From contig OW285197.1 of assembly GCA_935421135.1 (NCBI GenBank), forward strand, positions 14,017,223-14,081,222: DNA of 64,000 bases, read 5' to 3'. The first letter of the stretch is position 1. Each line of letters begins with the position of its first letter. This stretch comes from Bugulina stolonifera (lineage: Eukaryota; Bryozoa; Gymnolaemata; Cheilostomatida; Bugulidae). Positions 18,208-61,599 of this stretch are shown here, piece after piece. The notes beneath the pieces were generated by a model. That model did no database searches. It was not told the DNA's origin and saw nothing but the letters and a program-made list of their open reading frames with translations. The position numbers were made by a program, and so were the translations under genes.

Positions 18208-21200
18208 TCACTCTGTATGGAGGAAACTGAGCAAGCCAGATATTGATTTTACAGACTTGTCACGAAGGTTGGGATCTTTCTTACTAGAAATGATATCAGT
18301 ATAAATAGAGTGAACAAGATTAGGATTAATCTTATCGCTTCTGTCAATTTCCAGCCTATTGAGAGCATCTTTTATGCAATACAGCAAACAACGTTCTTTT
18401 ACTGTACTTGCCCCTAGTTTTAGTGCAGCACCCATATCCTTGAGGTAACATTCAGAACCTGTATGTGAATAGCTGGAATGTGTCCTCTTTCGAGGATTGA
18501 TATTTTGAGTCTGAGTAGTCTCAACGCGGCTAGTGGTATTTGTGTCAGTATTTCCACAGCCTTTGCAACTACATCTATTGGTACAAAAATATTTGTTACG
18601 GAAGCAAGGACACCTTGTTTTACGTTGATTATCGCTACAAAATATTTTTGAAAAGTTTAATTCACCTTTCTCACTTTCCCCGCATCTACATGAGATTGAT
18701 ATAGTACCATATCTTTTTTCTGAGTGGATATTACTTTGCTTTTCCTTCAGGCATATGTCAACAACAGCATCATAGTGACCGGGGCCCTTCTGATTGTACG
18801 CTACAACTAATGGCTTGTCAGTCACTAGATTTTCAGGAAAAATTGATAATACTGGGGTATCTTCTAAAGATGTGATAACAACAATTGGAGCAGCTAATAA
18901 ATCAGCCATTATAGACATCACTAAATCTCCCAACTGTCCAGAAAAAATTCCAGGAGTTTCAAATTTCTGGACTTCATTTAGGAATTGGATTTTGGTCAGT
19001 GTTGTTTTGCTAATGAATTTCTCAGTTACCTCTGGCTTGCACAAAAAGTCCACAAAGTTCCATCTAAGTTTAAGAGCCAAATTTTCTAACGGCCCTAACA
19101 GCAAATCCTCTGTTATGTTCAACTCTTGTCTCAAATGTTGCCAGTGAAGATCATCCAAAACAGGATGCACTTCAAGTTTAATGCCATAAGCCAGGCTCAG
19201 GAAAGCACAATCATTGTTTTCAGCCATAAGAACTTTGCACTTTTTATATTTTGACAAATTTGTGCTTAACCTGATATCATCTGGGGAGCTGCTACTTTGT
19301 GCTTCATTTTTCAAGAGATTGGATTTTATAGTGGCGGTCTTACCAGAGCTAAATCGGACTGATGAGATGTCAATAAAGTTATTTTCTAGCAATCTGTTTA
19401 CAGTTACCACCATTTTTGTACAATACTGATAAATGTTGTCTAAGATATCATCGTTCAATGATTCTTCAAATCTTAAATATTCACTTGATAATTTGGCCGC
19501 AATCAACTTGGGAAACCTGCGAGACTGAATGTTTCTCCTTCCATTGCCATCCAGTTTTGATGTGAAGTAGGTTAAACATGAACCCGGTAACTCTTGAATC
19601 CCTAGACGCTTCATATTGTAATTAAAAAACAAAATAGTTAATACAGCATAAGCTAATTCTGGACCTATTCGGGTAGCACCGGTGAGCATACTTCTGTTTA
19701 ACAACCTGTGTAGGTACTCATTTCTGTTGGTTCCACCTCCTGGCGGAATGAAGCTTAAACACCCTTTCTTCACATGTATCTAAAATATTCAATTGAACAC
19801 AGATTATAGTTGTAAAATACATGTACATGTTGTATACAAGTAATCAAGTAATCTCTGAGCTCAATCAATATATTATTATATGACAAATATTGCTGTTTTG
19901 TACAGGTACAAAATCCAGCTGTTTGACTTACTACACATCTTGTACATTTACATGTATCTAAAGTTGCATTGATCTCACAACATAATTATGTAGGCCTAAT
20001 AATTGCTGTCAATGACTTATTATTATTATTGGTGGCGATGAAGATAATTTGTGGCTGGCTGTGAATCAATTAGGAATAGATCAAGGATGCAGTTGTTCAT
20101 AGGACTTGTATTTTGTTTAAACAATCAATAATCTTGTTGTATGTAATGGCAGTCTAGTACTCACTCCAGTAACATTGACCAATAATGTGTTTTTGGTCAG
20201 AGTAGTTGCACCTTAGAAGTGCAGAAATTTAGATAGCCTTAGCTCCTTTGTTCTTGGTTGGGCTTAGACATGTACATGAACATCAATTGAAAAGAAACTC
20301 TTTCTCATACAAGCTTGTACATGTAGCCATACTCAAATAACATTTTCCTAAATTTCGCTGCTATTAATTAATGAGTGGATAATTCCATATACAAGCCATA
20401 CATGTTGTATTTAGGAAAAAACAGACTTACATGTACATGTAAATGCTAGTTTGATATCTGGTTGTTCTGTTAACTTTAACATGCATACATTTCAGATTAT
20501 TGTAATAATCCAACTGGGTATCACTTACTAGCTTGCTCCATTATGCGTAGTGCAAAGGTAAAACAATGTTCATAGTTCTGGTGCTGTAATGTGCGTGATT
20601 ATCTACATAAATATTAACAATTTAAAGTCAAACTTACCATCAGATTGTCAATTTCTTTTGCTGTATTTTCTGTAAACGGTGTGAGATCTTTGTCGGCCCA
20701 TTTAGTAAAAAACATGTTGAGATTTTCTTCTATAATACTGGGAGCAGGTGTGGTCTCTTCTCTAAACTGGCTGTTATTAGTTCTGCTTCGAACAATTAGC
20801 TTCAAGTCATCCATGCAACTCCTTGATAATTTGTGATGTTTTTGTACAGTTTTGGTAATTGTTTGAAGTGCGTGAAAAATATCCAACTTCACTTCTAAAC
20901 CAGGTCCAAAGATGCCTTGTAGTAAGGATGCCCATTTGCAACAGTTGTCTAAACATGCATGGGTGATACATAGGCCTTTCTTTAACAAGCGATCCCGGAT
21001 ATCTATCAGCAACGGAGATATTTCAGCAAACTTCTCGTTGGCAGTAAACGCCCAGTTGAGCACCAGGCCCTTTTCATTTAGCACAATGAAAAGTCCATTG
21101 TATTGTTGAATCCACTTTTTATCCGTTGATCTAATTACTCCAATGTTTTTACTAACCTTAAATGTGTGATCCATTGAAATAGAGTTTGCTTCTACGCTTT

Positions 21201-22156
21201 CCATATGCAGTTCATAAAATTGTTTACGGCTATTGAAAGTCTCAAGAAAAATAGTTTCCAAAATATACCTTGATGGAGTTCTCAAAATTTCACAGTTTGA
21301 ATATAGAGCTGAAACTCCTTGGGCATACTCATTAAAGTCTTCTATTTGATGTGTGGATTCTAATCCATAGCCTAAGCACTCCAAGTGAAATGCCCTTAAA
21401 GTAGTGAAGACATCTTGAAATGTTTCACCATGCGATATTTTTGTCATTATGAAATCAGCTAGCTCTCTTAGCCATCCACATTTGTGACGAAGGTGAAAAC
21501 AACACTTATTCCTTTGGGCAATGCTCAGTTGTTTTAGAAGCTCAGGATCTGTGGAAAGGATCCTGTGACTTTTTCCATTACTCTCTCCGCCACAAAAATA
21601 GTAACGTTGGATTAAAAAACTATTAGTAACCATACCATATAGTAGCCTTGGACAATGCTCTGCCTTATAAATCCAATGTGAAAATCCCAAAATTTTTCCA
21701 TGTTTAGGACATTTTAGTAAGAAGTTGAACCTTGATTTAGGACACCAAATTGTTGCTGCATAGGTAATTTGGTGATCTTCTATTGGTATGTAAAGTCTCT
21801 GGGGGAGATCATACATGTGCATGGATGTCCTATCATTCCCCTTTTCACAAGCTTCTGTGTATAGATCAATCAGATGCTCCACCTGTTTTACTGCTTCCTC
21901 AGGTATTTGTATACAACTGCTTGGAGTCACAATTAGCAGCATTATTCCAATTACTACACCAATTACATGTAAGTCTGTAATTGCTGAAACAGAAGAAAAT
22001 ACTGTCGTAAAGTACAAGTAAAATCAATATTATGTATGTATTTATTCATAAACAATTATACACCAACCCAGATAATACGTTCTGATCGCTAAACTTAGCA
22101 CATCCATTATAGCAAAATTTCTACTTACCAGTTTGTACGATTTTCACTGTCTTCAT
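18208..22156 (-). CDS. DDE-like transposase fused to OTU protease and CXC domain (3 exons, about 981 aa)
   Basis: I join three minus-strand exons: 22156-22129, 21983-20638 and 19779-18208. All junctions are GT-AG and phase-compatible (phase 1, then phase 0), giving 2,946 nt. The N-terminal half has a Cys/His cluster (CPKSRFNFLLKCPKHGK near residue 100). It is followed by an RNase H/DDE-like core with MDHTFK (about residue 280) and CLDNCCKW (about 354), each carrying a candidate catalytic Asp. Exon 3 opens with the PGGGTNRNEYLHR motif. It then has an OTU-type protease with ENNDCAF (catalytic Asp/Cys, about 649) and GHYDAV (catalytic His, about 793). Next is a CXC zinc cluster (CPCFRNKYFCTNRCSCKGCG, about 850-870). 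The frame is intact, so the element may still be active. Start: ATG at 22156; the hydrophobic segment after exon 1 is odd, and another first exon is possible. Confidence 0.85.
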
Positions 22157-26500: not shown

Positions 26501-26570
26501 ATGTCTACAGGTATGACATCATCAGAGTCTGGTAACATACAGTCAACTGAGAGATCAACTTCTCCACCAG
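26501..26570 (+). CDS. ROCO-caspase exon 1 (start)
   Basis: ATG opens MSTGMTSSESGNIQSTERS, a Ser/Thr-rich start, and ends in phase 1 at CACCAG/GTAGTC. The leftover G joins AT of the exon at 29279 to give GAT. Another ATG, 12 bases in, shares the frame. The 2.7-kb intron that follows could hide a further exon. Confidence 0.6.
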
Positions 26571-29500
26571 GTAGTCTTACTAGTGTATATGGTAGATAGT
26601 TAGTAAATCAACAAAACATCACCTGATTGGCTGATTGAAAATTCTCACTGATTTCACTCAACTCCTGAAAGGTTCTCCACTTTGTGACACTCACAAAAAT
26701 AGCTACAGCCCCAAACATATTTATGACTTGTTTAGGTAGTTACAAATGGAATGAAAGTTTTACATGTACCTTAGTTTGCAATTGTTGTATAACAGACAGC
26801 CTTCTTTGTTTTGGAAATCCCAAGTTTCTCGTACAATCAAAATAATATAGGTTTTCCAACTAAACGACGACCATAGAGCACGCTGTACTATTGCTGTGTG
26901 GTTGCTTGGATATGTGTTATGCAGGTGATGAATCATGTCTATTAGCTCAGGGGTGTCGGTTGGAGAGTTATCTATCATAGTTTGTTATGGTACATGGTAC
27001 ATTGATATGTTTTCTAAATGAGTCAAATTTGCGACTGTTCGAAAAAGACAGTTCAAAACAGGACAGTTCGAAACCAAACAGTTCAACACTGGACAGTTCG
27101 AAGCCCCAGATCTCAACTACTTTTCATTTTTGATATTATTTTTTTTTATTCAATTAATTAGATTAATTAATTAAACTTGATTAGTTGTGATTTGTGTTCT
27201 ACTAAATGTAATCTGCACAGTCTGGTTGTGAAACGTCCAGTTTCGAACTGTCTTTTTCAAAATGTTGATATGTTCCTTTACCACCAGAGTCACGGTTGTT
27301 ATCTCAGCCTGTACAATATGAAGAGTTGAAATCATGGAAATTGACCTTAATTAGAAGTCACTCTCTCAATCTGTCCTATTCTCCCAGGATGTGACACAGT
27401 ATTCACTACTCTTACTAACCAAATAATTATTTTTATAAAACTAATCAATATAAGCATACATGATGTTCATCTCTCTGCTCAATGAATAACATTAAAGTGT
27501 CTCTAGTCAAAGTGGGGTTTTCAAATGGTGGTATCTCCCTATTACAAGGATTCGGGATTTCAAAATTATTTTAAAATTCTTACTTTGAATTGTATAATTT
27601 TGTAACAAAAATATTTGTCTAACTAATTCTGAGGAAAGTGTGCCAAATCCTGAGGGAAGGAGAAGAGGGGATAACTTCTAATTGTGCGTTGTTAAGTACC
27701 ACCTTATTACTCTGATATGGTATATAATATGCAGAATGATATTTTTCTGGGCTAAAAGGTAAGTCTGGGGATGGTCAAGATGCCCTCAGGCTACATAATA
27801 TACTGTGTAGACCACAGACTACATAATATACTGTGTAGACCACAGGCTACATAATATACTGTGTAGACCACAGACTACATAATATACTGTGTAGATCACA
27901 GGCTACATAATATACTGTGTAGATCACAGACTACATAATATACTGTGTAGATCACAGACTACATAATATACTGTGTAGATCACAGGCTACATAATATACT
28001 GTGTAGATCACAGGCTACATGATATACTGTGTAGACCACAGACTACATAATATACTGTGTAGATCACAGACTACATAATATACTGTGTAGATCACAGGCT
28101 ACATAATATACTGTGTAGATCACAGGCTACATAATATACTGTGTAGATCACAGACTACATAATATACTGTGTAGATCACAGACTACATAATATACTGTGT
28201 AGACCACAGACTACATAATATACTGTGTAGACCACAGACTACATAATATACTGTGTAGACCACAGACTACATAATATACTGTGTAGACCACAGGCTATAC
28301 ATGTATATATAGTTACAAGGTTATGTTTAGTTAGTCTAACTGATTCTTACTAATAGCTTGGTTACATATAGCCCTGTGGAAGGTTTGTCGCACACATATA
28401 ATAACTCAAGGGTAAGAAAACAACCACCACCAACAAATATAGACTTGTCTGGAACTTCTGTCATTTCTCTCTTCTCCCTTTTTGACAGAACTAATTGGTG
28501 GTGTCTTGCATGTCACATACTCACACTATATTTTATGTAGCTAGTAGAACCGTTGTATGTTACATGCTCACCATATGCTGGTAGAACAGCTAGAAGGCAA
28601 CACCAAGTCCAAGTCTGACTCCCAACTACATGTTTACACTATACCAACTAGTTGTAGCGTTTACACTATATCAACTAGTTGCTGTGTTTACACTATACCA
28701 ACTAGTTGTTTACCACAATCAATTAACTGCCAGTATCCGCAGCAGCAAGCTAATCCTAGATTTGTAAAATGGCTGGTAGTTATAACCTTAGCTATTAGAA
28801 TTTATACTTCAAATTACAAATTTTGTAAGTATCACTTTGAATAGCTAATGCTAGGGAAGGTTAGTTTATCCAGAGTCTATCCTAGATTTGCAAAACAGAT
28901 GCTAGCTACGTATAATTAAAATACTGCTTTCTGATTGGTCAATACACCCAGCTGTTTGGACTGAGCACTGTTGAGTTGCTCAGATGGAGTTGGTGTAATG
29001 TAAATGCACCTTATAGCTGATGGTAAATAACACTGTGAAGTGTGTTACATGAATTGTTTTTAACTGACAACCATATTACGTACTTACTATCATGGTAGTA
29101 ACTATTATGTTATTATGTTATCAGTATTACATCATCTCCATAGACTTAATTCTATGAGTTTTTATTACCCCACACTAACAATACATGTAACTAGGGCTAG
29201 TTTATAGCTGATAGTATACAATACACTGTGAGTGTGACACGAAGTGTTACTAATATACATGTATATATTCTACTTTAGATAAATATAGGATATGGTTCAG
29301 ACATACTGGACAGCCTTCTATTAAAGGTACTGGCTGGATGAATAACCGAGTAAAGGCGTACACTGCTGAGGAGATCACGAAAGAAGTATCAGTTCATACA
29401 ATAACTCACCTTATACTGGAAGGAGATGTACCTGTGAACATTGCAGAGTTGTCTCCTCATGTCACAGATATATGTGTGAGAAATATCAGGAATAAGAATA

Positions 29501-32500
29501 GTCTAGACAAGTTAGTATTTATCTGTTATTTCTTATCATACTGAATGTAGTGTAATGGTACACATTTCACATACCTGTATTGTTATTACATAATACTGTA
29601 TTTCTCAATCTCTATCATTGATATTATATTATAGTAACATAGTAAAGTGTAATAAAATGGCGTATACATCTCTCTGCATGCAGTGTATATAATAATAGTA
29701 AATAGAGACTTCAGATACTGTTAGTGGTATATAAATCAGTCTATTGTTGTATGTATATAATGGATATGTGGGGAGGCATAGTATAATAGCCAGGAATTTA
29801 TGAAATATATGTCTAATATTGTACTATTATTAGGCTCTGTGTACACAACTGTAATACATGTATTATAGTCATATCATTATATAAAGTAAAACAGTGTAGC
29901 CTGTGTTCCTAGTAGTCATATAGATACTGTATACATTCTTATCAAGTATGGGTTAGTAGTGTAGTGGTACTTAGGCTAAATAATTCAGACCCCCTCATCA
30001 GTGTAGACTGGTGTCTAGGTTGGTTCTACAAGACCTGGGATGTTGGTTCATTAGTCTCATTAGCTACATACATATTATATAGTTATAAGTATTATATAAG
30101 TATAACTGAATAATGTAACACTAATAACTATAATGTGTTATATACTTTCTATTACAGTTTATGTCAGCTGACTAACCTACAGAAGTTATACATATATGGT
30201 AACTCCTACCTCCACACAGTACCTGATGTTGTATGTTCATTCACATCACTTACAGAGTTATATATGAGTAAGTGTGGACTATCTACTCTCCCCAAGAGGT
30301 TAGTTATATATTTACATTTAGGTTGCATATAATGTTAATCATGTTGTTAGTATATTCACAGGTAAGTGTATAATTACTAGTGTTAATTACCAGATAGTCA
30401 TGTAGCTAAACAATTATAGCTTATACTTGGATGATCCCCATGTTACTATAATCTTGTACAGGAATTTATGAAATATATGTATAATATTGTACTATTATTA
30501 GGCTCTGTGTACACAACTGTAATACATGTATTATAGTCATATTATTATGTAAAGTAAAACAGTGTAGCCTCTGTTCCTAGTAGTCATATAGATACTGTAT
30601 ACATTCTTATCAAGTATAGGTTAGTGATGTAGTGGTACTTAGGCTAAATAATTCAGACCCCCTCATCAGTGTAGACTGGTGTCTAGGTTGATTCTACAAG
30701 ACCTGGGATGTTGGTTCATTAGTCTCATTAGCTACATACATATTATATAGTTATAATTATTATATAAGTATAGCTGAATAATGTAACACTAATAACTATA
30801 ATGTGTTATATACTTTCTATTACAGTTTATGTCAGCTGACTAACCTACAGAAGTTAGACATACAGGATAACTACCTCCACACAGTACCTGATGTTGTATG
30901 TTCACTCACATCACTTACAGAGTTAGATATGACTCAGTGTGAACTATCTACTCTCCCCGAGAGGTTAGTTATATATTTACATTTAGGTTGCATATAATGT
31001 TAATCATGTTGTTAGTATATTCACAGGTAAGTGTATAATTACTAGTGTTAATTACCAGATGGTCATGTAGCTAAACAATTATAGCTTTTACTTGGATGAT
31101 CCCCATGTTACTATAGTCTTGTACAGGAATTTATGAAATATATGTATAATATTGTACTATTATTAGGCTCTGTGTACACAACTGTAATACATGTATTATA
31201 GTCATATCATTATATAAAGTAAAACAGTGTAGCCTGTGTTCCTAATAGTCATATAGATACTGTATACATTCTTACCAAGTATGGGTTAGTGATGTAGTGG
31301 TACTTAGGCTAAATAATTCAGACCCCCTCATCAGTGTAGACTGATGTCTAGGTTGGTTCTACAAGACCTGGGATGTTGGTTCATTAGTCTCATTAGCTAC
31401 ATACATATTATATAGTTATAATTATTATATAAGTGTAGCTGAATAATGTAACACTAATAACTATAATGTGTTATATACTTTCTATTACAGTTTATGTCAG
31501 CTGACTAACCTACAGAAGTTAGACATATGGGGTAACTCCCTCCACACAGTACCTGATGTTGTATGTTCACTCACATCACTTACAGAGTTAGATATGAGTA
31601 GGTGTGAACTATCTACACTCCCAGAGAGGTTAGTTATATATTTACATTTAGGTTGCATATAATGTTAATCATGTTGTTAGTATATTCACATGTAAGTGTA
31701 TAATTACTAGTGTTAATTACCAGATGGTCATGTAGCTAAACAATTATAGCTTTTACTTGGATGATCCCCATGTTACTATAATCTTGTACAGGAATTTATG
31801 AAATATAATGTATAATATTGTACTATTATTAGGCTCTGTGTACACAACTGTAATACATGTATTATAGTCATATCATTATATAAAGTAAAACAGTGTAGCT
31901 TGTGTTCCTAATAGTCATATAGATACTGTATACATTCTTACCAAGTATGGGTTAGTGATGTAGTGGTACTTAGGCTAAATAATTCAGACCCCCTCATCAG
32001 TGTAGACTGGTGTCTAGGTTGGTTCTACAAGACCTGGGATGTTGGTTCATTAGTCTCATTAGCTACATACATATTATATAATTATAATTATTATATAAGT
32101 ATAGCTGAATAATGTAGCATGATATGCATGTACAGTGGAACTCGCTTAATTCAGCCTCGGTTACTTCGAAAACTTGGATAGTTCAAACTACTAACCTTGG
32201 TCCCTGCTGAGCACTTTATAAATGGCTATATATAACTAGGATTTATTATGTATAATTCAAACTTCAAGTTAAAATTCTTGCAATGTGTGTTATTGGAGCA
32301 TGTGACCGTGGCTCTATATATCAGTGCCTTTGAGGTAGACAGTTTCCGTTTATAAGTTGTAAATGCGTTCCTATGCAGTTGTTTCTATATTGTTCATGTT
32401 TTGGGTTATTATGATGTCTAAAAATTGCAGTCTATTGTTGATTTCTAGGGATTGTATTTTTGTGTGAAATGTGTTACGGATGTTTAGGTAAAAGTTTGTT

Positions 32501-35500
32501 TTCCAGCATTTATTGCAGTCACTGTGTCGCACCTGTACCATGGTAGCCTGTGTTCATTCATTTGTGGAAGTACTGTAGTTGGTTCTCGAGTTCTGTCATG
32601 GAAGAGTTCTGTCAAGGAGATACCAGCGATTGCTGGTCCTAGAGGAATCCCATAGCAACACATCATTCTATGTGTCGGAGTTGTTACCAAAAATGAAATG
32701 TACATCTTTGGTACCTGAGTCTAGTAATTGTTTAAGTCTTATTACTTTTTCCTTTGTATATTTTTTCAATATTATGTTTATTGTCAAGTCAAGTGGTATG
32801 TTGGTGAACTGTGAAACTACGTCAAAGGATATGAGTTTAAGGTTATACGGTGTGATTGTGTCGTTAAAGTGGTCGGGGAAATCCAACTTAGGTGTATTGT
32901 GTATTGTGATGTACGTAGTGGTGCAGGAATTTTGCCAGATATTGCTGTGTTGTATGTTGCTGTGCCTACCTATGTTGGGTACCGTTTGTTAGTTTGTCTA
33001 CATCATCATCTTTGAATTTGTATATTTTTGTGGCTCCATAAAAATTTCCTGATGCTAAGCCTGTGGAATATAATGTTTCGTATTCTGTTTTAGTTATTGC
33101 TTTTTTATTATTCCTCAAGGTATGTTGGTTTTTTGGTTTTGTTTTAGTCATTTTCAAGTTCTTTTTTAAATTGGTCATTGTTAAGTATTTAGGTGCACTT
33201 TTGCATAAAAGTATTGAGGTGGAAGCAGAATAGCCAATTGACGGTGGAGCGACAGGGCATCATCACATCAAGCAAGAATTAAATATTTTACGTTTTTCAC
33301 TCTGATAATGCTGGCTTCTAATAGGCCAGCAATGTTTTTGCCGACTCCAATCCCCAAGTTTGTCAATAAACAAAAATTCCAAATTGAATTGCTGTTATAA
33401 TGTGATGTGCACGAAGGAGACATTAAAATAATTCCCTGCCTATGCACACATGCTCAGACTTGATAGCGTTCATGGACAATACATCACTACTGTCTGTTGT
33501 TCAGTGGGAAAAATTCGTCACTCTGGCAAAAACGTTATGGAAAGGCAGGAAATATATTCGCTGATCTGTTTGGGCCTTTAGTGTCAAGAGTTACTACTCC
33601 TTTACCTTAGTCAGTGTTTGGATTACATATATCTTACCTTGTGACGATACCTCTGTAGTTGTGGTCGTATCATGTATAGCATAGCAGCATAGATCAATCT
33701 TCCTAAATCAACTTCCAGTTCATCCTGAAGTCGTTTAAAGTGATCATGCACCCTAGGCTTATCATATAACTATCGTTGCGCTCCATTTTTCAAGGCGAAT
33801 CAACTGATTTTTAAGAGTTATCTTTTCAATGGAGCCATTTATCACTAGATTTAATAGCAAAATGGCTCTGTAATTCAGAGTTATCTTCCACAAAAATTGT
33901 TTTTTGGCTGTGCATGTAAAGTTGTCATCTCTCTACTTTTGTTAAAAAAAATTTGTACTAAGAACACAAACCACAAGAATGCAATAATATGACCAATGTC
34001 ATAAGGCTGCTCTGCCCTGACCACAATGATAACAAGAGCTGGTATACTGAGTGGCTTGCTAATTATTCTACACTCAACAGCCTAGCAGCCACCTACATGT
34101 ACATGGATTGGTCCATTTTCTATATTGCAACAAAAGCAAGTTAGTGGCTAGGCTACTGTTCTGCTCACTTAGGATGTGTCATGCATTATTGAAAATAAGA
34201 ATTTCTACTGAAGTAGTCCTACACTAGGTACTTTATAAGTAGCCTCCTCCCAACCACACTGGCTAATCAATGAGCCACTACGCATATCACTGCCAGCCCA
34301 AGAAGGGATCTGGTGAAGACATCTGCCATTAGCACATGCGTGTATAACTGAATGGGCGTGTTATGCAATGTACATGTATGTGCATTACTTATTATAGTTA
34401 CTATAGTTATTTATAATAAATTAGTGTACATATATCAGCTTTACAGATGTATAAAAATCATAATGTTGTATAGGTGTACATACATGTGCATCTTACTTAT
34501 GGGGTACAGACATGAGCTATACACTCATGTAGTGCATGATAATACATTTTTATGTGTATACATGTGGTACATGATTTTCATAATACATGTAATTGAACAT
34601 ACTGTAATAGTTTTGTAATATGATTCATAAATAACATTATACATGTTATGTACAGATACTGTCAAATAGAACATGTAGTGTGCAGTCTTATACATGATAT
34701 ACATGTACATGAACGCAAATTACAGAATATTTAAATTGTATATAAAATATTATTAATATATGCTATAGATAAGCAATTATACCTTTGTACATTGCAACCA
34801 ATATTAGCTCACAAGAACATGTGCATCCCTCTGTTGTTTTGCTCATACAACATTGAGTGTCTATATTACTAAATTGTTGTTTTTGACAGGGTAGATTCAC
34901 AATCTCTGGTTTGGGGGCAAATATGTACACAAAAGAAATTTTTATCACCAATAACTCACTACATGTACATTACATGTATTATGAGCCCACTGGATGGAAG
35001 AAGAACAAGATCATCACTGACCACTAAACCATTTTGTTGGTGCTTGTTTATAAGTTGGACACCATTGAATAAACATTAGAAGTATTATTATTTTATGTGA
35101 TGACCAAATCTGCTGTCTCTGCAGGTACACTATAGGTTAGCTAGCTAGTCTGTACGCTATGCCTGTAGCCATATAGAATGTTATAAGAAAGAAGTCAGAT
35201 TGTATTTCTTCTATCGTGACTGTGTTAGTGAACATGTGCCATCATCATGCTACTTGATCACTCACTATCAGTATAATTTTGGTTACAGAGGATAATAATA
35301 TTCTCCGTTCCTAAAACATAGGCAGAAGGAAGAAAGTGTTTCCTAGGATCATATGTTGTGGTGTAACACCTGAATTTTTCACTTCTGCAATAGTATTCAA
35401 ACTTACCAGTAGTACTATTTATGTCATTATAATATGCCAAATGAAAATGAAAAACTGCCCTTTTATTTATAGGCCTATGCAATCTAAATAACAAATGCTA

Positions 35501-38500
35501 TGCTCTACTATCAGGACAATTTTTCCAGCTGCTATTTGGTTTATGGAGTGCAACTTTTGTAGAGACTGGCTTCCTGATATGCATAAATATAGTGTTTTTT
35601 CACTAGCCCATGTGTGTTTCTACTAAACATCCTGATGGCTGCATGCCATTTGTTTCATATTTATTGCCCGCATAGGTGTTGGCAAATGCCCCTTCTATTG
35701 TGAAGGGATAATCTATGCGCTGCCACACTGAAATGAATGCTAATATTGTTATTTACTCGAATCATCTGTAGCCAGCATAGTCACAGGAAGATTTGGCTTG
35801 AATCACTCAATACTTGTGGCAATGTTATTTTGTTATTGATCACATTTTATTCTCATTAGTGGTTGACCTTGTGGTCAAAAGTCAACAACCCATCAAGTGC
35901 AAAGTAATGGTGGATTTCAGTTGTGAAATATTGGGAGTTATCTGACACCAAAATGCACGAGAGGACAACATGCAATAGTCCTCCAAATAGTCCTCAGCTT
36001 CTGCTTCTATGCTTCTTTATCACTAAATTGGCCTAAAAAACACTCAAAATAGCTGCCTGGGGCTCGATGTTTCCTTTAAAACGATATAAAACACCCCTAG
36101 GCTGCATGATCACTTTAACTTACTCTGTTTGTAGTGCTTGTTCTACTGCTCAGTGTTTAGTGTGAACAGAACAGAACTAAACATCAAATGGCTCACTGAT
36201 GCAAATAAAGTTGAGCTAAACCATTATGAAAGCCATAAAACACTACGATAGATGAAAGTTATATTACTTAGTTGTAGCTAAATAATTGATGAATACAACT
36301 TTCACACCATACTGCATTTATTTACCTGTTTACCTGATGCATTTTGATAATGCATACATGTAACATTAATCGAATTAAACCAAAGGGTTATGTTGTTTAC
36401 CACATGACTGCTAAGGGGTACTTAGGCTAAAAAAGGTTGGGAACCCCTGATCTATAGAGTAGTCCTTCATATTTCCTAACTTTGTCAAGTTTCCCTTGCC
36501 CATATAGTGTTACCTGCAGTACACTACCCACAGTCTATAATATTCAGTCTGTGATATTATTATATACTGATTAAATATTCCATCGAGTATTGTGATGTGA
36601 GGGAGCAGTACTTCTATAATATAACTCTGTGTATAACATGTTGTGTATTATTTACAGTCTCTCAGCCCTCTCCAACCTACAGAAGTTGAACATATCCTCC
36701 AACTCACTCACACACTTACCTGATCATATCAGTCAACTGAAGAACCTCCAGTATCTAGATATCAACTACAACAAACAGTTGAAAACTCTCACCTCAGAGA
36801 TTCTCAACATGCCTCTCCTGTCACGTATTGATACAGATGAATGTAACTCACTCACTTCACCTCCAATAGAGGTGTGTATGCAGGGAGTTACTGCCATCAG
36901 GGTATACTACACTGATCTCTTACAGAGTGATAGTGTAGACGTTTCCATAGCAACCATTGCTGTGATTGGACAAACATGTTCCGGTAAAACGAGTCTTATT
37001 AAAACCCTGCAGAGCACAGAAGGTGTCCGAGTTCTGACGAATAGAGATGAAAATGCAGAGTCTGATGAAACGACGAGAGTTTTTAAGATGGAAGAAGTTG
37101 TGGTAGAGAACGACACGCTACAGTTTATTGACTTTGGTGGAAACTCCATCTACCAGTCTACGTATCAGTTCACTCTGAAACAGAATTGTATCCCTATCGT
37201 TGTCATAAGCATGGAGATGTACTCCAACCTATTTCATGAAGTAGGTGGGAATGAAGCAGTGAGACAGCTCTACTTCAACTGGTTGTCTCACCTGTACTTG
37301 TCCTACCCCGACCTTGGCCCATCCAAACTTGTGTTTACCCACCAAGACAAATTCAAGGACACCGATGAATTTGCTGAACTTGAAGACAGCTTTATGCACC
37401 ACACCAAGTGCGTTTTTGAACAAATTCGTATCGACGAAAGTGCTAAGTGGAAAGAAGAAGGGAAATTTGCAAGAATTCAACATTTTGAACATGCCGAGAT
37501 GTTTAATGGAATGGACATATACAGAATAGGTGACACCTACAGCGACACCTTCAATCAGCTGAAGAAATGTCTCGTCGTGGAAAGTAAGAAAGTCGTGAAG
37601 CGGATACCTAAGCCTTGGAAGAAAGTTGATGAAGCTCTCAAGTCCCTAGAGGATGGCTACAGATCGTTTGATGAAATTCACCAAATGCTGACAGTAGAAC
37701 ATGCTATAACCCAGGAACAGCTAGAGGTCATCTTGATGTACCTACACAATAGTGGAAAGTTACTTTGGTATAAAGGCCACAAAGAGCTACGTTCGTATAT
37801 ATTCTACCGTATTCCTGTAGTCACAACTCTCCTTGAGGTACTCTTTACCCATGATGACACAGTGTGGCAGCATCGTCTATCTACAGACAGCAACCCTTCA
37901 CCTGGTGACTCACACCTTCTCTCTAAAGAAGAGTTCACACGGTTGGCTGACCAGTTCCAATCAACAGGAACCATGCATTCTACTCTACTACATCACCTGC
38001 TGAGAACTGAAACTCTTTTTACTATGGGTTCTTCCTCCAAGGTAGCTGTTGACATTCTCAAGTCGTTCCGATTGCTATACGTTCCTAAAGGGAGTGACAG
38101 CAATCACTATATCATGCCCTACTTCTGCAAGGAGTTCCTCGACAGCCCTCCTACTAGTGAAGACATGCCCATCAGCCTTCATACTGACCTACAGTTTGAA
38201 GGACTGCCACTACCACAGCACGTGTTCCACCAGATTACAGTGGAAATGTTGAATTCGCTCTCAGTCAGCAAGGAGGCTGTCGTGAGGAACAATGGAGCCA
38301 GAGTGAGCTATGAAGGTCAAGTGGTACAGCTATCACATGACTACAGGTCAGGGAGAGTGAGTGTGAACATAGTGACTAGTGTGAAGAGAGTCCCAGAAGC
38401 ATGGCAACGACTCGTCGACATAACAAACAAGTCGATAAAATATGTGGAGGAAGGATGGGAAGCAACAAGAATGAAATGCACCTTCTTTTGCCCCCATTGT

Positions 38501-41500
38501 CTGCTGAAAGAACACCCACACCCTGAAAGGAAAGTCAACCCCTCTTGGTGCCAGTTTCATGGAAGGAAACCATCCAGAGACCATCCTGATACCAGAACCA
38601 CAAAGGTGTGGACTTGTAAGAAAGATTCCAAAGCACCAGCCTGTCTCACAACTCCATGTAAGTATATATTATACACTTACATGCTGATATACTTACACTA
38701 CACATGTGGTTATTATTATATATTACAGTAGTTTAGTAAGTATACCCTCAGTATACATTCTGTGTATACAACTAGAGTATATCATGTTATATAATTAGTT
38801 TACTGTACCTTGACTTGTATCTATTCCATAACATATATAATTAGTCTGTGTTTTCATAGCTAGTGTCTTGTTTATTATTGTACAAAGTAAGTATGTACAC
38901 AGTACTGTATCTTCTATACTACATATATATACATGATACACTACTATTACTATTTACATGTATATATAGACTTGTATATTTTAGGTTACAGTTTATCAGA
39001 TGAAGAACTGAAGAGTCTGGAAAACTATGTATCTGTTACAAGGACTCCCAGGCCATCAGGTAAGATAACATAATTATGTATATATGCAGAGATGTGTGCA
39101 AGTTTTATTTTGGAAACTCAAGTTTCCATGACCAACTCTTAGTTGTGACTCTTCAAGTTACAAATAAATTCTTTCAGTGACAGATCAAAACTTTCAAGTT
39201 ACGAGTTAAATATTTACATGTCCTCAGAAACTCAAGTTTTTGTCAAGTTATCCAAGTTAACTACAAGCAAGTTTCAATTCAATTCTTTGCCTGTTTAACT
39301 CGAGTCTTTTTATAGAGTTATTGGGTTATTGTTTAGCTTATGGTGAAATTTTGTTAGGAAATGGTGTTAGAAGTTCAAATTTCAAAGCAAAATGTCACAG
39401 TTTTAGTGTAAAATGTGTTATAATTGTGGTTGTGGTTGGTGGTTATAAGTTATAACTGTGGTTATTTGTATTTATTACAATTCACAGCTGCCCAATGAAA
39501 ACTCGAGTTATTGAATATTTCAATATAATGATGTGCAAGTTGAGAGTCTTTGATCATAGCCATAATTGAATTACAATTCAAGTTACAAGTTTTTGACAGC
39601 TGTGTATTCAAATTACGAGTCTTTGTAATAAGCCATAAAATGTTGCTTGAATTAACTCGAGTGAGAGTCTTTAACTCGAGTCTGGCATCTCTGTATATAT
39701 GATATGTGATATGATATACAAGAGTAAACAACTCCTATATACTGATATATGTTTCCATCTCTATTGTATATATATTAGTTTATTTACTCCGCGTACAACT
39801 CTACTCGTTATTCTATACTCATTATAATGGTGAGTGTTACTATATATAATAATATATACTTTTATTATATAATATTCTAGTATCTACTGAGAGATTAGCT
39901 CCGCCCCCTCAAACTCAACACACAGATGATGGTGATAGTGACATCTCAGATGTAGAAGATTTTCCTCCAACAAATATACATATGCACAGGGAACCAGTGC
40001 TGACTACCAAAACTACAATCAAACAGATGTTTGATGACCCTCAGGTATTTATTACTATATGTAGGTTTAGCATTGTCTAGTCTCACCTGAATATTACACC
40101 AACTATATTATTGTATGTTCATGTATATATTATTATAATAATTATGTTAGCGTCTTCATTTTTCTTGTGTTGTGTCGTCTGGCACCAACCCAAAATCTAA
40201 TTGGAGGATGGCAGATCGCAGACCAACTGTTCGTCTTTTTATATACAAGACCTTCAGGCTTGGTCTGCAAGTCTTTCGCTCTACTCGCATGACTTGTAGC
40301 CATGTACAGAGGTACATGTGCATGACCTCTGGTGGTGCAGGCATGTTACAAGGATTCCGTAAGGAGTTGTGTTCCCTTACACCAAAGAGATAACTCTAGA
40401 TCCAGGAGGGTCTCCGCTACTTGTATAGCCCGAGTTCCAACGCTGTTGAGGGCCTAAGGCGACTGCTCCGCCCCGGTTTTAGCACTACCCGGAGCCAAGA
40501 TCTCGACCGGCAGCATTGTATCGTATTTCAGTCGCGCAAAATTTCAACCCCAAATCCAATTGCAGGACGACGAACCGCAGACCGTTTCGTCTTTGGTTAT
40601 AGGATGATGATGTGATGGTCTGGCACATTGCCAGTACTCCGACATTGACCTATTTACTGACCCCCATGAACACACGCTGCTGTCAGTTTAGTCAGTTATA
40701 TTATTATATAATATTCAGGTATACAAGATGTCTGAAACTATGAGAGGAAGAGCTTTGATTATCAATAACATGACATTTGACGGTGCCCCTCATCTCACCA
40801 GAGTAGGCTCTGATAGAGATGTACAGAATATGTTTTATATGCTGAGAAAGCTTCACTTTGATGTGGAGGTGAAACATGAGCTACCAGGGAAGGTAACTAC
40901 TTCCATATGATAAAGTTTTGTTTAACTACAAGTTGTACTTGATGTATTTAGTAGTACTTTACAACTAGCTGCACACGATAATGCAGCAGTAAGTGAGAGT
41001 TATACTCTCTCTGTTGTAATACTACCACACTTATACTAACTACAGTATCAGAATATAGGAGTTATGATCTCTCTGTTGTACTACTACCACACTTATACTA
41101 ACTACAGTATCAGAATATAGGAGTTATGCTCTCTCTGTTGTACTACTACCACACTTATACTAACTACAGTATCAGAATATAGGAGTTATGCTCTCTCTGT
41201 TGTACTACTACCACACTTATACTAACTACAGTATCAGAATATAGGAGTTATACTCTCTCTGTTGTAATACTACCACACTTATACTAACTACAGTATCAGA
41301 ATATAGGAGTTATACTCTCTCTGTTGTACTACTACCACACTTATACTAACTACAATATCAGAATATAGGAGTTATGCTCTCTGTGTTGTACTACTACCAC
41401 ACTTATACTAGCTCAACTGTGTCATAGAGGTCAAAGGTTAAGTAGGGAATAGAAACCAGAATGTGTGAAAAGAAAAGCGAAAAACAATTTATCAGTTAGA

Positions 41501-43363
41501 AAACCTCTCCGGTTGTCTACTTACTAACTTACAATATGCACTAATATAATGTGGAGAAGATAGTGAATTATGAAAGTACAAGATTAATCTCTGCAATTTT
41601 GTGTTCAAGCTACAAAATCTCCAGACAGCTACATGTATATTTACACTTGGAGATTTTTGAATGGATCATGAATCCTTTCAGGCCATTTGTAGCTGAAAAT
41701 TTATATTGACTTTGTGCCTTGGCCACAAAACACCAGATAATTAATCTTGGAGATTTTCTGTCTACACTGGGAGATTTATCGCTCTGGTGATAAATCTCCC
41801 AGTGTTCAAACGCTACTTAATGGCTCATGTCAGTGGATATAAACATCTCTACAGAGTCACTTGACTTATCTCCTACTCTACTCTGGTTTAGTGCAACACA
41901 AGGAGTTGGAAAGCTCTATTTAGTTTTCCAACACGTATAATTTCTTCCTTGCTCGGTCCTTCCTGTAGAAGATGGCATGTTATAACTAAATACTGTAAAC
42001 TCTGATAAAATGTGTTTATAGGAAATCCTGTCTGCAATCAAAAGAGAAACTAAACATCGTGAACAGAGAGATTTTGGAATGCATGTGACAGTAATTATGT
42101 CTCATGGTGCAGAGCAAGGAGTTGTGTACGGTACAGACAGAGTAAAAGTAAAGCTAACAGATGTCTATCATCTACTTTCTTCCAAAAAGTTTGTCAGAAT
42201 GGCTGGGAAACCTAAAGTTATCATAGTACAAGCTTGTAGTGGTAAGTGTTGTGGTGTCTAATATAGGATGGGTGTCCATAACTACCCCCATAGAGTGTAT
42301 CAATCTATAGCGCTTAGGTCCTCAGTCTAACATATTAAAGAGTCAATGAGTCATACTTGTGACATAACAGTCTCTACAACAACAGGAAGTAGTCTATTAT
42401 TATTTATAGTTCGTTTTACTGACTTTATGTTTATACTCAGCTGCACCAGAAACCAAACAATCAGATCACCACCTCAAAAGCAGAAGGGAAGGACTCTCTG
42501 TAGATGACTTGCTCATTATTCAATCCTGCTTTGAAAGTAAGTTTCATCAGATGGCTAAAGGGGGAGTCTAGTCTACTCTTCTATGATACTGAACTACTGG
42601 GTCAGTTCTGGTGTTGATCTTCATGTCTTGTATACATTTATACGGAGTTGCACCCTCACTACATGTCTGTATATATTTACAGGGAGCTACCCCCTCACTC
42701 CATGTCTGTATATATTTATAGGGAGTTGCCCCCTCACTACAAGTCATGTCTGTATATTATTTACAGGTAACTCAGCTATGAGACATCCTCAGTTTGGTTC
42801 TCCATTCATTAGAGTTCTGGTAAAGACGCTGTATAAACATGCCTGTCACCGTGACCTCTACACTCTGTTTGATATTGTAAGTATTATAGTAGACAGTTTT
42901 ATAGAGATCAATGTAATATATACCATATACATTGTACATGACAGGTTAAGCACCCTTTACTATTATAGTAAGAATCACATTTAACAATATATATACTAAC
43001 TGCTTTATGCTGCAGGTACAAGAGAGAGTGAGAGTTCTCAGTAAACGACTGGTAGAAAGAGATCCCACCGATCACATAGAACAGACACCAGTAGTCACCA
43101 AAACCCTGACTGGATACAGAAAGATTTACCTGTTTCCTGGGTTTAGAATAAATGAGAACTACGATAGAGATGAAAGTGACAGTGAGACAGACACTGAGAC
43201 AGACGCTGAGGTAGACGTTGAGATAGATGAGGAAGAAGGCATGAAGCGTGAAGTACTAGACTATCATTGGACAGTCAGACAGGCAGGCTGGTTGGCTGTC
43301 TGGTTGGTTGGATTGCTCACTTGCTGGCTGATTGGCTGGTTGTACAAATGGTTGGCTGAATGA
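26501..43363 (+). CDS. LRR-Roc-COR-caspase protein with C-terminal membrane anchor (13 exons, 1,301 aa)
   Basis: Exons: 26501-26570, 29279-29510, 30158-30298, 30826-30963, 31491-31628, 36658-38657, 38985-39059, 39881-40044, 40719-40892, 42022-42241, 42441-42536, 42767-42876, 43016-43363. All introns are GT-AG, every phase matches and the sum is 3,906 nt. The ATG follows an in-frame stop at 26462. Order: short Ser/Thr-rich N-terminus, leucine-rich repeats (about 100-320), Roc GTPase (about 335-500), COR (about 530-850), Cys/His-rich segment, acidic linker, caspase p20 (about 990-1117), caspase p10 (about 1125-1230), second acidic linker and hydrophobic tail. Roc has P-loop GQTCSGKTS, FIDFGGN and THQDK. 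The caspase has RVGSDRD, SHG (His about 1072) and QACS (Cys about 1116). ROCO proteins are GTP-gated scaffolds and caspases are cell-death or inflammatory proteases. The fusion suggests a self-contained, GTPase-controlled caspase at a membrane. The fold assignments are strong; the role is inferred. Confidence 0.88.
27033..27262. mobile_element. MITE with CAGTTCGAAA sub-repeats, copy 1
   Basis: GAAAAAGACAGTTC at the left is mirrored by GAACTGTCTTTTTC at the right, with several sub-terminal CAGTTCGAAACAGGAC-like words and an AT-rich core (TTAATTAATTAA). A second copy in the other orientation is at 45715-45995. It lies in intron 1 of the ROCO-caspase gene. Confidence 0.75.
27787..28301. repeat. 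28-bp minisatellite, about 18 copies
   Basis: Unit CTACATAATATACTGTGTAG plus AYCACAGR. Variation alternates between GACC and GATC and between CAGA and CAGG. Located in intron 1 of the ROCO-caspase gene. Non-coding. Confidence 0.95.
28632..28712. repeat. 24-bp repeat, three to four copies
   Basis: Copies of GTTTACACTATACCAACTAG followed by TTG and a short spacer, within intron 1. It keeps a short ORF open but I see no exon signals around it. Confidence 0.7.
29791..32111 (+). repeat. 665-bp tandem duplication units, each with one LRR exon
   Basis: A block beginning CAGGAATTTATGAAATATAT recurs at about 29791, 30459, 31123 and 31788. The first three copies each contain a phase-2 to phase-2 LRR exon (141, 138 and 138 nt). 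The fourth is cut at 32111, just before its exon, by the sequence carrying a Tigger-like end. The intron parts are nearly identical, so the duplications are recent. Each exon encodes about two LRRs built on LCQLTNLQKL and LTSLTEL. Confidence 0.92.
32133..32280. mobile_element. Truncated Tigger-like MITE
   Basis: Begins TACAGTGGAACTCGCTTAATT and matches 4238-4330 for about 90 bp (AGTTCAAACTA, CTTGGT.CCTGCTGAGCAC, TATAAATGGCT), then diverges. It marks the point where the fourth LRR unit is interrupted. Confidence 0.6.
32450..33200 (-). pseudogene. Penelope-like reverse transcriptase fragment
   Basis: Read on the minus strand, three short frames carry ordered reverse transcriptase motifs: GNFYGATKIYKF, then SFDVVSQFTNIPLDLTI (motif A with its Asp), then YGIPLGPAIAGI (motif B). 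The catalytic double-Asp motif region is damaged (WYRCDTV) and the frames are shifted relative to each other, so this is a dead fragment. FYG-x-x-KI-K and SFDVVSxFTNIP are typical of Penelope-like elements. It lies in the 5-kb intron between the last LRR cassette and the Roc-COR exon. Confidence 0.7.
33739..36114. mobile_element. TTAA-flanked element with short inverted ends
   Basis: AGTGATCATGCA at 33739 is mirrored by TGCATGATCACT ending at 36114. TTAA lies directly outside both ends, and CCTAGG follows just inside both. This is the footprint expected of a piggyBac-type insertion. The interior (about 2.4 kb) shows no long ORF, so it would be non-autonomous or decayed. It sits in an intron of the ROCO-caspase gene. 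Confidence 0.5.
36165..36449 (+). mobile_element. Truncated hAT non-autonomous element
   Basis: Shares AAATGGCTCACTGATGCAAA, AGTTGAGCTAAACCA and the terminus GGTTGGGAACCCCTG with the inverse of 23505-23983. The other end is missing. Confidence 0.65.
36658..38657 (+). CDS. ROCO-caspase exon 6: last LRRs, Roc and COR
   Basis: A 2,000-nt exon with acceptor TTTACAG and donor GTAAGT. Residues run from SLSALSNLQKLNI through two further LRRs into the Roc domain. The P-loop Gly is near residue 344, DFGG forms the switch-II-like motif and THQDK the base-recognition motif. COR follows, containing the winged-helix-like ITQEQLEVILMYLHNSGKLL and ending in a Cys/His-rich segment (CTFFCPHC ... PSWCQFHG). 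The last feature is common in ROCO proteins of invertebrates. It is the largest uninterrupted coding block in the window; the two opposite-strand ORFs are shadows. Confidence 0.95.
39087..39693. mobile_element. hAT non-autonomous element with perfect target duplication
   Basis: Bounded by CAGAGATG and CATCTCTG and flanked on both sides by TATATATG (39079-39086 and 39694-39701), an exact 8-bp duplication. The interior is filled with CAAGTT/AACTCGAGT words. Inserted in the intron between the COR-side exons and the caspase exons. Confidence 0.85.
40186..40602. repeat. Element-like segment with direct repeats of about 58 bp
   Basis: Two direct copies (about 40186-40243 and 40544-40602) share CAACCC.AAATC.AATTG, CGCAGACC and TTCGTCTTT. 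The enclosed DNA is clearly richer in GC than its surroundings. It could be a small terminal-repeat element or SINE-like insertion in the intron before the first caspase exon. Identity not established. Confidence 0.5.
40719..43363 (+). CDS. ROCO-caspase exons 9-13: caspase catalytic domain and anchor
   Basis: Exon 9 gives RGRALIINNMTFDG and the HLTRVGSDRDVQNM region, where the Arg corresponds to the caspase S1-pocket Arg. Exon 10 contains the catalytic His in MSHGAEQG and the catalytic Cys in VQACS. Exons 11-13 give the small subunit, with MRHPQFGSPFIRVL as the substrate-groove segment and YRKIYLFPG as the terminal strand. The residue after QACS is Ala across the exon 10/11 junction, where caspases normally have Gly. 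Exon 13 then encodes an Asp/Glu-rich linker, about 23 hydrophobic residues rich in Trp and Leu, and the stop. AATAAA follows at 43386. Confidence 0.9.
40960..41410. repeat. 62-bp tandem repeat, about seven copies
   Basis: The unit runs CTCTCTCTGTTGTACTACTA through ATAGGAGTTATG, with spacing of 62 bp. It lies in the intron between caspase exons 9 and 10. Non-coding. Confidence 0.9.
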
Positions 43364-43385: not shown

Positions 43386-43391
43386 AATAAA
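43386..43391 (+). terminator. AATAAA signal of the ROCO-caspase gene
   Basis: A canonical polyadenylation hexamer 22 bp after the stop codon. Confidence 0.6.
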
Positions 43392-59552: not shown

Positions 59553-59639
59553 CTGTGAAAATAAAATGGACGGGTTGGAGGGTGCTGACACCGAAGAATA
59601 AATAGAGAAGGATTTGATAAAATCTTTGTGTAGTCTAGT

Positions 59640-61300
59640 TCTACTCATCTATCCATATGTGTACACATGTTAAAATACCTTTATATAATAGTTCAAACAC
59701 AATTGAATGAATAAAAGACACATATCTAAAGGAGTATGTCATAGCTATTATTAGCAAGAAAAGACTGTGTGCATGTGTTAAGTCAGCATACATAATACAT
59801 TAAATAAGCTTTTCACAATAGTAGCGATAGAATAAATAAAAGGTTGTATGCATGTGTTAAGTCAGCATTATGTAATTCATTAAATAAACTTTTCACAATA
59901 GTAGCAATAGAATATATAAAAGGTTGTATGCATGTGTTAAGTCAGCATTATGTAATACATTAAATAAACTTTTTACAATACTAGCAATAGAATGAATAAA
60001 TGTGTACACATGGTAAAATACCATTATATAATAATTTAAACACAATTGAATGAATAAAACGCACATATATGTAAAGGAGTATGGCATACCTATTATTAGC
60101 AAGAAAAGGCTGTGTGCATGTGTTAAGTCAGCATATATAATACATTAAATAAACTTTTCACAAAGTCAGCATAATATATAATACATTAAATAAACTTTTC
60201 ACAATAGTAGCAATAGAATAAATAAAAGGTTGTGTGCATGTGTTAAGTCAGCATTATGTAATTCATTAAATAAACTTTTCACAATGGTAGCAATAGAATA
60301 AATAAAAGATTGTGTACACATGTTAAAATACCATTATATAATAATTTAAACACAATTGAATGAATAAAAGGCACATATGTAAAGGAGTATGACATACCTA
60401 TTATTAGCAAGAAAAGGCTGTGTGCATGTGTTAAGTCAGCATATATAATACATTAAATAAACTTTTCACAAAGTCAGCATAAGATATAATACATTAAATA
60501 AACTTTTCACAATAGTAGCAATAGAATAAATAAAGGGTTGTGTGCATGTGTTAAGTCAGCATTATGTAATTCATTAAATAAACTTTTCACAATAGTAGCT
60601 ATAGAATAAATAAAAGAGTGTGTACACATGTTAAAATACCTTTATATAATAATTTAAACACAATTGAAAGAATAGGCTGTGTGCATGTGTTAAGTCAGCA
60701 TATATAATGGATTAAATAAGCTTTTCACATAAAATACCTTTATATAATAATTTAAACACAGTTGAAAGAATAGGCTGTGTGCATGTGTTAAGTCAGCATA
60801 TATAATAGATTAAATAAGCTTTTCACAATAGTAGCAATTGAATAAATAAAAGGTTGTGTGCATGTGTTAAGTCAGCATTATGTAATTCATTAAATAAACT
60901 TTTCACAATAGTAGCAATAGAATAAATAAAAGATTGTGTACACATGTTGAAATACCTTTATATAATAGATTAAATAAGCTTTTCACATACCTATTATTAG
61001 CAAGAAAAGGCTGTGTGCATGTGTTAAGTCAGCATATATAATAGATTAAATAAGCTTTTCACAATAGTAGCAATAGAATAAATAAAAGGTTGTGTGCATG
61101 TGTTAAGTCAGCATTATGTAATTCATTAAATAAACTTTTCACAATAGTAGCAATAGAATAAATAAAAGATTGTGTACACATGTTAAAATACCTTTATATA
61201 ATAATTTAAACACAATTGAAAGAATAGGCTGTGTGCATGTGTTAAGTCAGCATCTATAATAGATTAAATAAGCTTTTCAATAGTAGGTAGGTGTCACTGT
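59640..61300. repeat. Left arm of a long palindrome, made of sub-repeats
   Basis: Irregular repeats of modules such as GTGCATGTGTTAAGTCAGCA, TTAAATAAACTTTTCACAAT, AGTAGCAATAGAATAAATAA, TGTACACATGTTAAAATACC and TATTATTAGCAAGAAAAGGC. From about 59954 the arm has an inverted counterpart ending at 63821. No coding region. Confidence 0.9.
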
Positions 61301-61599
61301 TTTAGTCTCCCTATAATAAATATAAAGTAGCAGGGTGTAAGTAATTTTTTAGCTTGATAGCATTATATACAATAAACACTTCACAATTGCTGCCAATTAC
61401 CCTATTTAGCACTAACCTTATGTTCTACTTGTTGAAATCTCTGATCAGGTGCTGACTAGTAGGTAGCTGTCTCTGTTTTAGTCTCACTCTGTTGACTAGA
61501 GGCTGATTGTACATACTGCTAGAGTGAGAAACTCATACCTTAAATAGTAGTATTCAGTAGGCGGAGTCTAACCATTTCCCCACCCTTTGCAATACCACC

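Follow-up and report, generated by a model that had tools for sequence, protein, structure and literature searches.

A large bryozoan gene family that probably encodes leucine-rich repeat, Roc-COR and caspase domains in one chain

The group 1 Roco proteins, including human MFHAS1, Chlorobium tepidum Roco, and Methanosarcina Roco2, carry leucine-rich repeats (LRRs), a Roc GTPase domain, and a COR domain in this order. The same order was found in a gene at positions 26501-43363 of a 64,000-nucleotide stretch of the genome of the cheilostome bryozoan Bugulina stolonifera (GenBank assembly GCA_935421135.1, contig OW285197.1, positions 14,017,223 to 14,081,222, forward strand; the whole stretch is called the window hereafter), but here the COR domain is followed, via an acidic linker, by a complete caspase. 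The window gene is probably one member of a large bryozoan family encoding single-chain LRR-Roc-COR-caspase proteins, in which, judging from the sequence, a sensor would act directly on its own caspase. Several members from Watersipora are annotated by their source as MFHAS1 homologues. A 2019 review distinguishes three groups of Roco proteins, none of them with a caspase, and the word caspase does not occur in its available text (PMC6337361). The bryozoan proteins also differ from LRRK1 and LRRK2 in that their output enzyme is a protease and not a kinase, no kinase being found by Pfam, and from DAPK in that neither a kinase nor a death domain was found by Pfam. Thus they seem to be Roco proteins with a new kind of output enzyme, and the layout from sensor to killer seems to be new.

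On the caspase side, the window copy resembles animal caspases (C14A; caspase-3/6/7, CED-3, and caspase-9) in having p20 and p10 parts, the His/Cys dyad, and the Arg-Gln-Arg pocket for an Asp at P1. It differs from them in that Roc-COR stands at the place of the prodomain, where no CARD, DED, or death domain was found. NLRs and the apoptosome combine an LRR or other repeat sensor with a nucleotide switch and a caspase output. The bryozoan proteins have a similar combination, but Roc-COR replaces NACHT or NB-ARC and the caspase is covalently attached. In amphioxus, LRR-caspase and TNFR-caspase hybrids, which hold receptor and caspase in one polypeptide, have been reported (PMC2575513), and they share the idea of a 'shortcut' with the bryozoan family. 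However, the word GTPase does not occur in the main text of that paper as available, whereas the bryozoan family is built on an LRR-Roc-COR core and numbers dozens of copies. Novel amphioxus caspase architectures are also treated in PMC3196919, whose available text mentions neither LRR nor GTPase, and in the available parts of PMC8195603 and PMC7159879 Roco appears in the reference lists only. No description of a Roc-COR-caspase protein was found in titles and beginnings of abstracts on Roc/Roco, on bryozoans/Bugula, and on NACHT with caspase, a search that did not cover bioRxiv and most of the subscription literature. The first-pass annotation of the window had suggested that the architecture might be undescribed. 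This stands for Roc-COR-caspase in the literature searched, but receptor-caspase shortcuts as such are known from amphioxus (PMC2575513).

When spliced in silico, 13 exons with GT donors and AG acceptors gave a single unbroken frame of 1,301 amino acids. The exons are as follows:

26501..26570, + strand: exon 1, start codon and 23 residues, ending in phase 1; in frame with the chain, and the least certain exon
29279..29510, + strand: exon 2, an N-terminal module of the family of ~77 residues, with homologous exons in the genome
30158..30298, + strand: LRR exon 1, two LRRs, phase 2-2; Pfam LRR_4
30826..30963, + strand: LRR exon 2, two LRRs, phase 2-2
31491..31628, + strand: LRR exon 3, two LRRs, phase 2-2
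36658..38657, + strand: large 2,000-base exon with the last LRRs, the Roc GTPase, COR, and a CxxC-containing Cys/His-rich end; LRR_8 and COR-A pass their Pfam cut-offs, Roc and COR-B fall short of theirs
38985..39059, + strand: linker exon B (CYSLSDEELKSLENYV...), in frame and aligning with Watersipora
39881..40044, + strand: linker exon C, acidic DSDISDVED followed by ...TTKxxIKxMF...; related stretch in 17/21 loci and motif in Bugula and Watersipora proteins
40719..40892, + strand: caspase exon p20a with the S1-pocket Arg (LTRVGSD); Pfam C14 34.9 bits, phase-0 acceptor in 21/21 loci
42022..42241, + strand: caspase exon p20b with the catalytic His (MSHG) and Cys (QACS); Pfam C14 43.3 bits
42441..42536, + strand: inter-subunit linker and start of p10 (SVDDLLIIQSCFE); in-frame splice, alignment with relatives
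42767..42876, + strand: caspase p10 (SAMRHPQFGSPFI) with Arg at the SWR position; in-frame splice, alignment with relatives
43016..43363, + strand: last part of p10 (LFPGF), then an acidic tail, a hydrophobic stretch seen in the window copy alone, and the stop

Exon 2 had no Pfam match, and a similar N-terminus is visible by eye in the Watersipora proteins P0002 and P0004. An AATAAA at 43386 (+), 22 bases past the stop, is suggestive only.

The Pfam scan covered seven translated stretches of the window gene. LRR_8 (31.1 bits), COR-A directly after Roc (36.5 bits, cut-off 35.3), and Peptidase_C14 in two exons (34.9 and 43.3 bits, cut-off 21.4) scored above their cut-offs, while Roc (24.5 bits, cut-off 27) and COR-B (15.8 bits) scored below theirs. 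CARD, DED, death domain, kinase, NACHT, and NB-ARC gave no match in these stretches or in 8 proteins from Watersipora and Bugula. In an alignment, the Arg-Gln-Arg pocket of the window copy is made up of LTRVGSD, VQAC, and SAMR, and the 60 Protein Data Bank (PDB) matches shown for the caspase were all named caspase or CED-3, the best at 4e-20. A single Roc-COR sequence had no PDB match by phmmer, and a profile of the family's Roc-COR found the Roco structures 4wnr, 3dpu, 6hlu, and 8r4b. The predicted fold of Watersipora P0003 matches CtRoco and LRRK across COR. Among the VIA-align rows shown, its structural matches are Roc-COR and GTPase chains without a caspase, but Foldseek does show a caspase; the caspase part of this prediction has middling-low confidence (pLDDT ~52-76 for p20 and mostly 40-66 for p10).

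These results bear out most of the first-pass annotation. The continuous chain of LRRs, Roc, COR, and caspase that it proposed is backed by the single frame, by Pfam, and by recurrence across the genome; GQTCSGKTS, DFGG, THQDK, and the catalytic His and Cys are present where it had placed them; and Roc-COR in place of a prodomain agrees with the domain scan. The membrane tail that it gave to the protein did not hold as a feature of the family. The hydrophobic tail makes up the last ~30 residues, encoded at ~43270-43360, and was seen in the window copy alone. It is absent from L017, the paralogue that is 91% identical in Roc-COR, from Watersipora P0002-P0006, and from 10 other paralogues as far as their tails were displayed (that of L031 is incomplete). 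The motif used for the tail matched nothing in 9/20 paralogues.

The window lies on contig C11 of the B. stolonifera genome searched (235 Mb, 27 contigs). Because the searches of this genome with the families and the LRR exon scored the best candidates alone, their counts are lower bounds. Pfam gave at least 112 Roc matches and at least 139 C14 exon matches. When Roc lay in an open frame of at least 230 amino acids, a threshold chosen after the table had been inspected, a caspase match followed on the same strand 2.7-6.7 kb downstream in 28/30 cases, compared with 0/82 of the other Roc matches. Of the 112, none had a caspase match in the 8 kb upstream on its own strand, and none had one on the opposite strand at a distance of up to 8 kb. 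With the window Roc-COR exon as query, 73 matches including itself were merged into 63 loci, some of them fragments, and 56 of the 63 had a caspase exon match 0-7 kb downstream on the same strand. About 0.13 such pairs would be expected by chance if the 139 caspase matches were scattered randomly and the clustering of paralogues is ignored. Conversely, 85 of the 139 caspase exon matches were within 7 kb downstream of Roc-COR loci. All 20 paralogues fetched had the order Roc-COR, Cys-rich end, p20a, p20b, and p10 on one strand. The N-terminal exon of the family was found in 47 copies including that of the window, and 43 of these copies each precede a different Roc-COR locus on the same strand, at a distance of 1.5-89 kb. 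Since the loci cluster, 16 of the 47 also have a Roc-COR on their other side within 100 kb.

The motifs for GTPase and caspase activity were compared in 21 loci, namely the window copy and the 20 fetched paralogues. The P-loop GxxxxGKTS and THxD are present in 21/21 and DxGG in 20/21, which is consistent with the GTP-switchable module of the first-pass annotation. The S1 Arg in p20 is present in 21/21, and the catalytic His and the catalytic Cys in 20/21 each. The p10 Arg is present in 18/21 (8 by exact motif and 10 by eye among the 13 motif-negative loci); its position is occupied by Lys in L023 and His in L036, and L035 has none. In L024, L029, and L036 the active-site pentapeptide has EAC for QAC, with Glu replacing Gln, and L033 has QTC. 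Glu at the start of the pentapeptide may alter the choice of substrate.

The fusion is also annotated as single proteins in Bugula neritina and Watersipora subatra. These two bryozoans were the only named sources of relatives in the protein searches, in which the profile search scored the 8,000 candidates richest in shared words, and fusions in other phyla are therefore possible. Unnamed metagenome proteins matched as well, some of them closely (E down to 1e-220), and there were three weak LRR or Roc-COR matches besides (P0007, P0037, and P0038). With the caspase part alone as query, the matches were two Watersipora proteins only. Watersipora P0002-P0005 have LRRs and a nearly complete C14 domain in one chain by Pfam. 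Bugula P0001 has Roc (29.7 bits), COR-A (30.5 bits, below cut-off), and C14 (53.9 bits), in a model without the first caspase exon and without p10. A midpoint-rooted tree built from 39 Roc-COR rows placed nine Watersipora proteins and the metagenome protein P0025 in one group (support 1.0) apart from Bugula/Bugulina, so the family expanded separately in these lineages. Watersipora P0019 ends after the first caspase exon, and P0019, P0020, and P0022 are truncated models, broken genes, or short isoforms. The first-pass annotation had pointed to sponges and cnidarians as the place to look for relatives; the host is a bryozoan and so are the sources of the named relatives. Its interpretation as a single gene with LRR, Roc, COR, and caspase thus stood, the membrane tail and the focus on sponges and cnidarians did not, and the multigene family and variable LRR array had been missed.

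The LRR array varies in the number and sequence of its exons. Because they are symmetric in phase 2, LRR exons can be gained or lost without a frame shift. The genome holds at least 114 LRR-exon matches (the best 150 of 433 candidates were scored), and 90 of the 114 precede a Roc-COR locus by no more than 40 kb; 14 are ahead of L017 and 3 belong to the window copy. Among the three LRR exons of the window copy, pairwise differences are 6.5-8.0%, compared with 1.0-2.7% in the downstream intron and 2.5-7.3% in the upstream flank. Non-synonymous and synonymous differences in the three pairs are 10/0, 9/2, and 6.5/2.5, and non-synonymous divergence (pN) exceeds synonymous divergence (pS) in two of them. 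At the exposed positions of LxxLxLxxN, pN/pS is 3.0 compared with 1.05 elsewhere, calculated on 13 LRR exons (3 from the window and 10 from the L017 gene), just nine of them unique, with a position set chosen once the sequences were known. For Roc-COR, the comparison of the window copy with L017 gives a pN of 0.040 and a pS of 0.145. In the array ahead of L017 (stretch L037), the same four exon sequences occur twice, 2,661 bases apart, either because the block was duplicated very recently or because of an error in the assembly.

By analogy with known systems, the protein could work as follows. The LRR array would bind pathogen, damage, or non-self ligands. Binding would shift the Roc-COR pair to another nucleotide and dimer state, and this change would bring two caspase domains together and activate them by induced proximity. 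The paired caspases would then cut at Asp, their own linker included, leading to cell death or inflammatory processing. One polypeptide would do the job of an NLR or apoptosome sensor and its recruited caspase. To the anatomy described above we add the ligand, the GTP gating, and the outcome, which we infer from general knowledge of Roco proteins and caspases. As a guess, the acidic linker may be a hinge or a phosphorylation site.

The same anatomy would arise if an LRR-Roc-COR gene and an adjoining caspase gene had been duplicated together and misread as one, which is the refutation that the first-pass annotation had named. The gene model is a prediction from genomic sequence, a Met at the fourth residue of the caspase exon (VYKM) is a possible start, the interval from the Roc-COR exon to p20a contains one AATAAA on the + strand, at 39163, and the Watersipora models P0020 and P0022 stop ahead of the caspase. 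However, the VYKM Met is absent in L032 and Watersipora P0005, and a single AATAAA says little in an AT-rich intron, as 166 occur in the window on its two strands. Both p20a and p20b directly follow an AG acceptor in phase 0 in 21/21 loci. The acidic linker (S-D-x-S-D, then ..KI..LF.N..KV) was found between COR and p20a in 13/21 loci by a strict motif, and a looser motif devised afterwards added 4 more to give 17/21, both counts being without a chance control; the motif also lies between COR and caspase in the Bugula and Watersipora proteins. The distances of Roc-COR and of the caspase among the 21 loci are correlated (r=0.95), with 0/10,000 permutations as high, and the correlation is 0.72 over the 172 more distant pairs. 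Since the linker exon recurs and Roc-COR and caspase diverge together, two genes are unlikely. The N-terminal exon, found once ahead of each of 43 Roc-COR loci, and the joint proteins annotated in two other species also speak against two genes, and we consider this explanation highly improbable.

Granted a single gene, Roc-COR might serve mainly as a scaffold, with the caspase acting, like pseudo-caspases, as a decoy or regulator. This explanation could draw on L035, where His and Cys are gone, and on the EAC and QTC variants, but it is hardly more probable than two genes: both catalytic residues are kept in 20/21 loci, and p20b of the window and L017 differ by 3 synonymous and 4 non-synonymous changes (pS 0.061, pN 0.024). 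A role mainly in developmental or regenerative remodelling (polypide degeneration, metamorphosis), with the caspase triggered by endogenous ligands, is less remote and still unlikely. In bryozoans, cyclic degeneration and metamorphosis involve much cell death, and Roco proteins elsewhere are not all immune. However, a family with dozens of copies, with expansions that are separate in the Roc-COR tree, and with LRR exons that vary in number and change amino acids at exposed positions looks more like a recognition repertoire than a developmental switch, and most likely it is a repertoire of single-chain NLR-like sensors. The fuller proposal is that these are rapidly diversifying single-chain 'inflammasomes' for pathogen recognition or colony allorecognition, with LRR-exon arrays that expand, exposed residues that diversify, and Roc-COR, the switch of LRRK2, directly gating the caspase. 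They would then add a fourth class to the Roco proteins by structure and would sense death signals through a nucleotide switch that needs neither NACHT nor NB-ARC. In our view this proposal has about an even chance of being right.

Several observations weigh against a family of intact and diversifying single-chain sensors. The exon chain is a prediction from genomic sequence. Seven of the 63 Roc-COR loci have no caspase match in the listed set, although some of the 63 are fragments, and neither form of the linker motif was found in L031, L032, L033, and L035. L032 has an in-frame stop. L035 (G000:C4:7785018-7794918) has lost both the catalytic His and Cys (MTCG, THTST) and kept the Roc motifs, and is likely to be a pseudo-caspase. 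In the scanned relatives, Roc was above the Pfam cut-off in P0004 (28.2 bits) and P0001 only, and COR was not found in the Watersipora proteins at E 0.001. Watersipora P0020 and P0022, whose model quality is uncertain, end right after the linker, and caspase-less forms may exist. As for diversification, the upstream flank diverges about as much as the exon in the two LRR-exon pairs that involve the first exon, pN (0.063) is lower than pS (0.080) in the third pair, and the late choice of exposed positions and the few unique exons count here as well.

Other features of the window were noted beside the gene. The intron between p20a and p20b contains a tandem repeat with a unit of ~60 bases at 41000-41410 (by eye). 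The large intron preceding the Roc-COR exon contains short open frames at 32484-33259 (-) that by eye look like reverse transcriptase, and the two of them that were scanned had no Pfam match. Two adjoining open frames at 18208-19779 (-; 523 amino acids) and 20614-22023 (-; 469 amino acids) look by eye like parts of a DNA transposon. The former had a weak CXC-domain match (MSL2-CXC, 19.4 bits, below cut-off) and the latter had none. The 166 AATAAA in the window (both strands) compare with 81 in shuffles, about a twofold excess; many are on the + strand at 59560-61376 and on the - strand at 62318-63810, which hints at a large inverted repeat.

Since these genes are in public assemblies, studies of their expression, activity, and polymorphism can begin immediately. 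A Roc-COR wired to a caspase would provide a direct readout of the effect that a Roco switch has on changing its nucleotide or dimer state, an open question for LRRK2. The family would also add nucleotide-switched cell-death receptors that belong neither to the NACHT nor to the NB-ARC class, in a phylum of colonial animals for which little is known about the genes of immunity and allorecognition.

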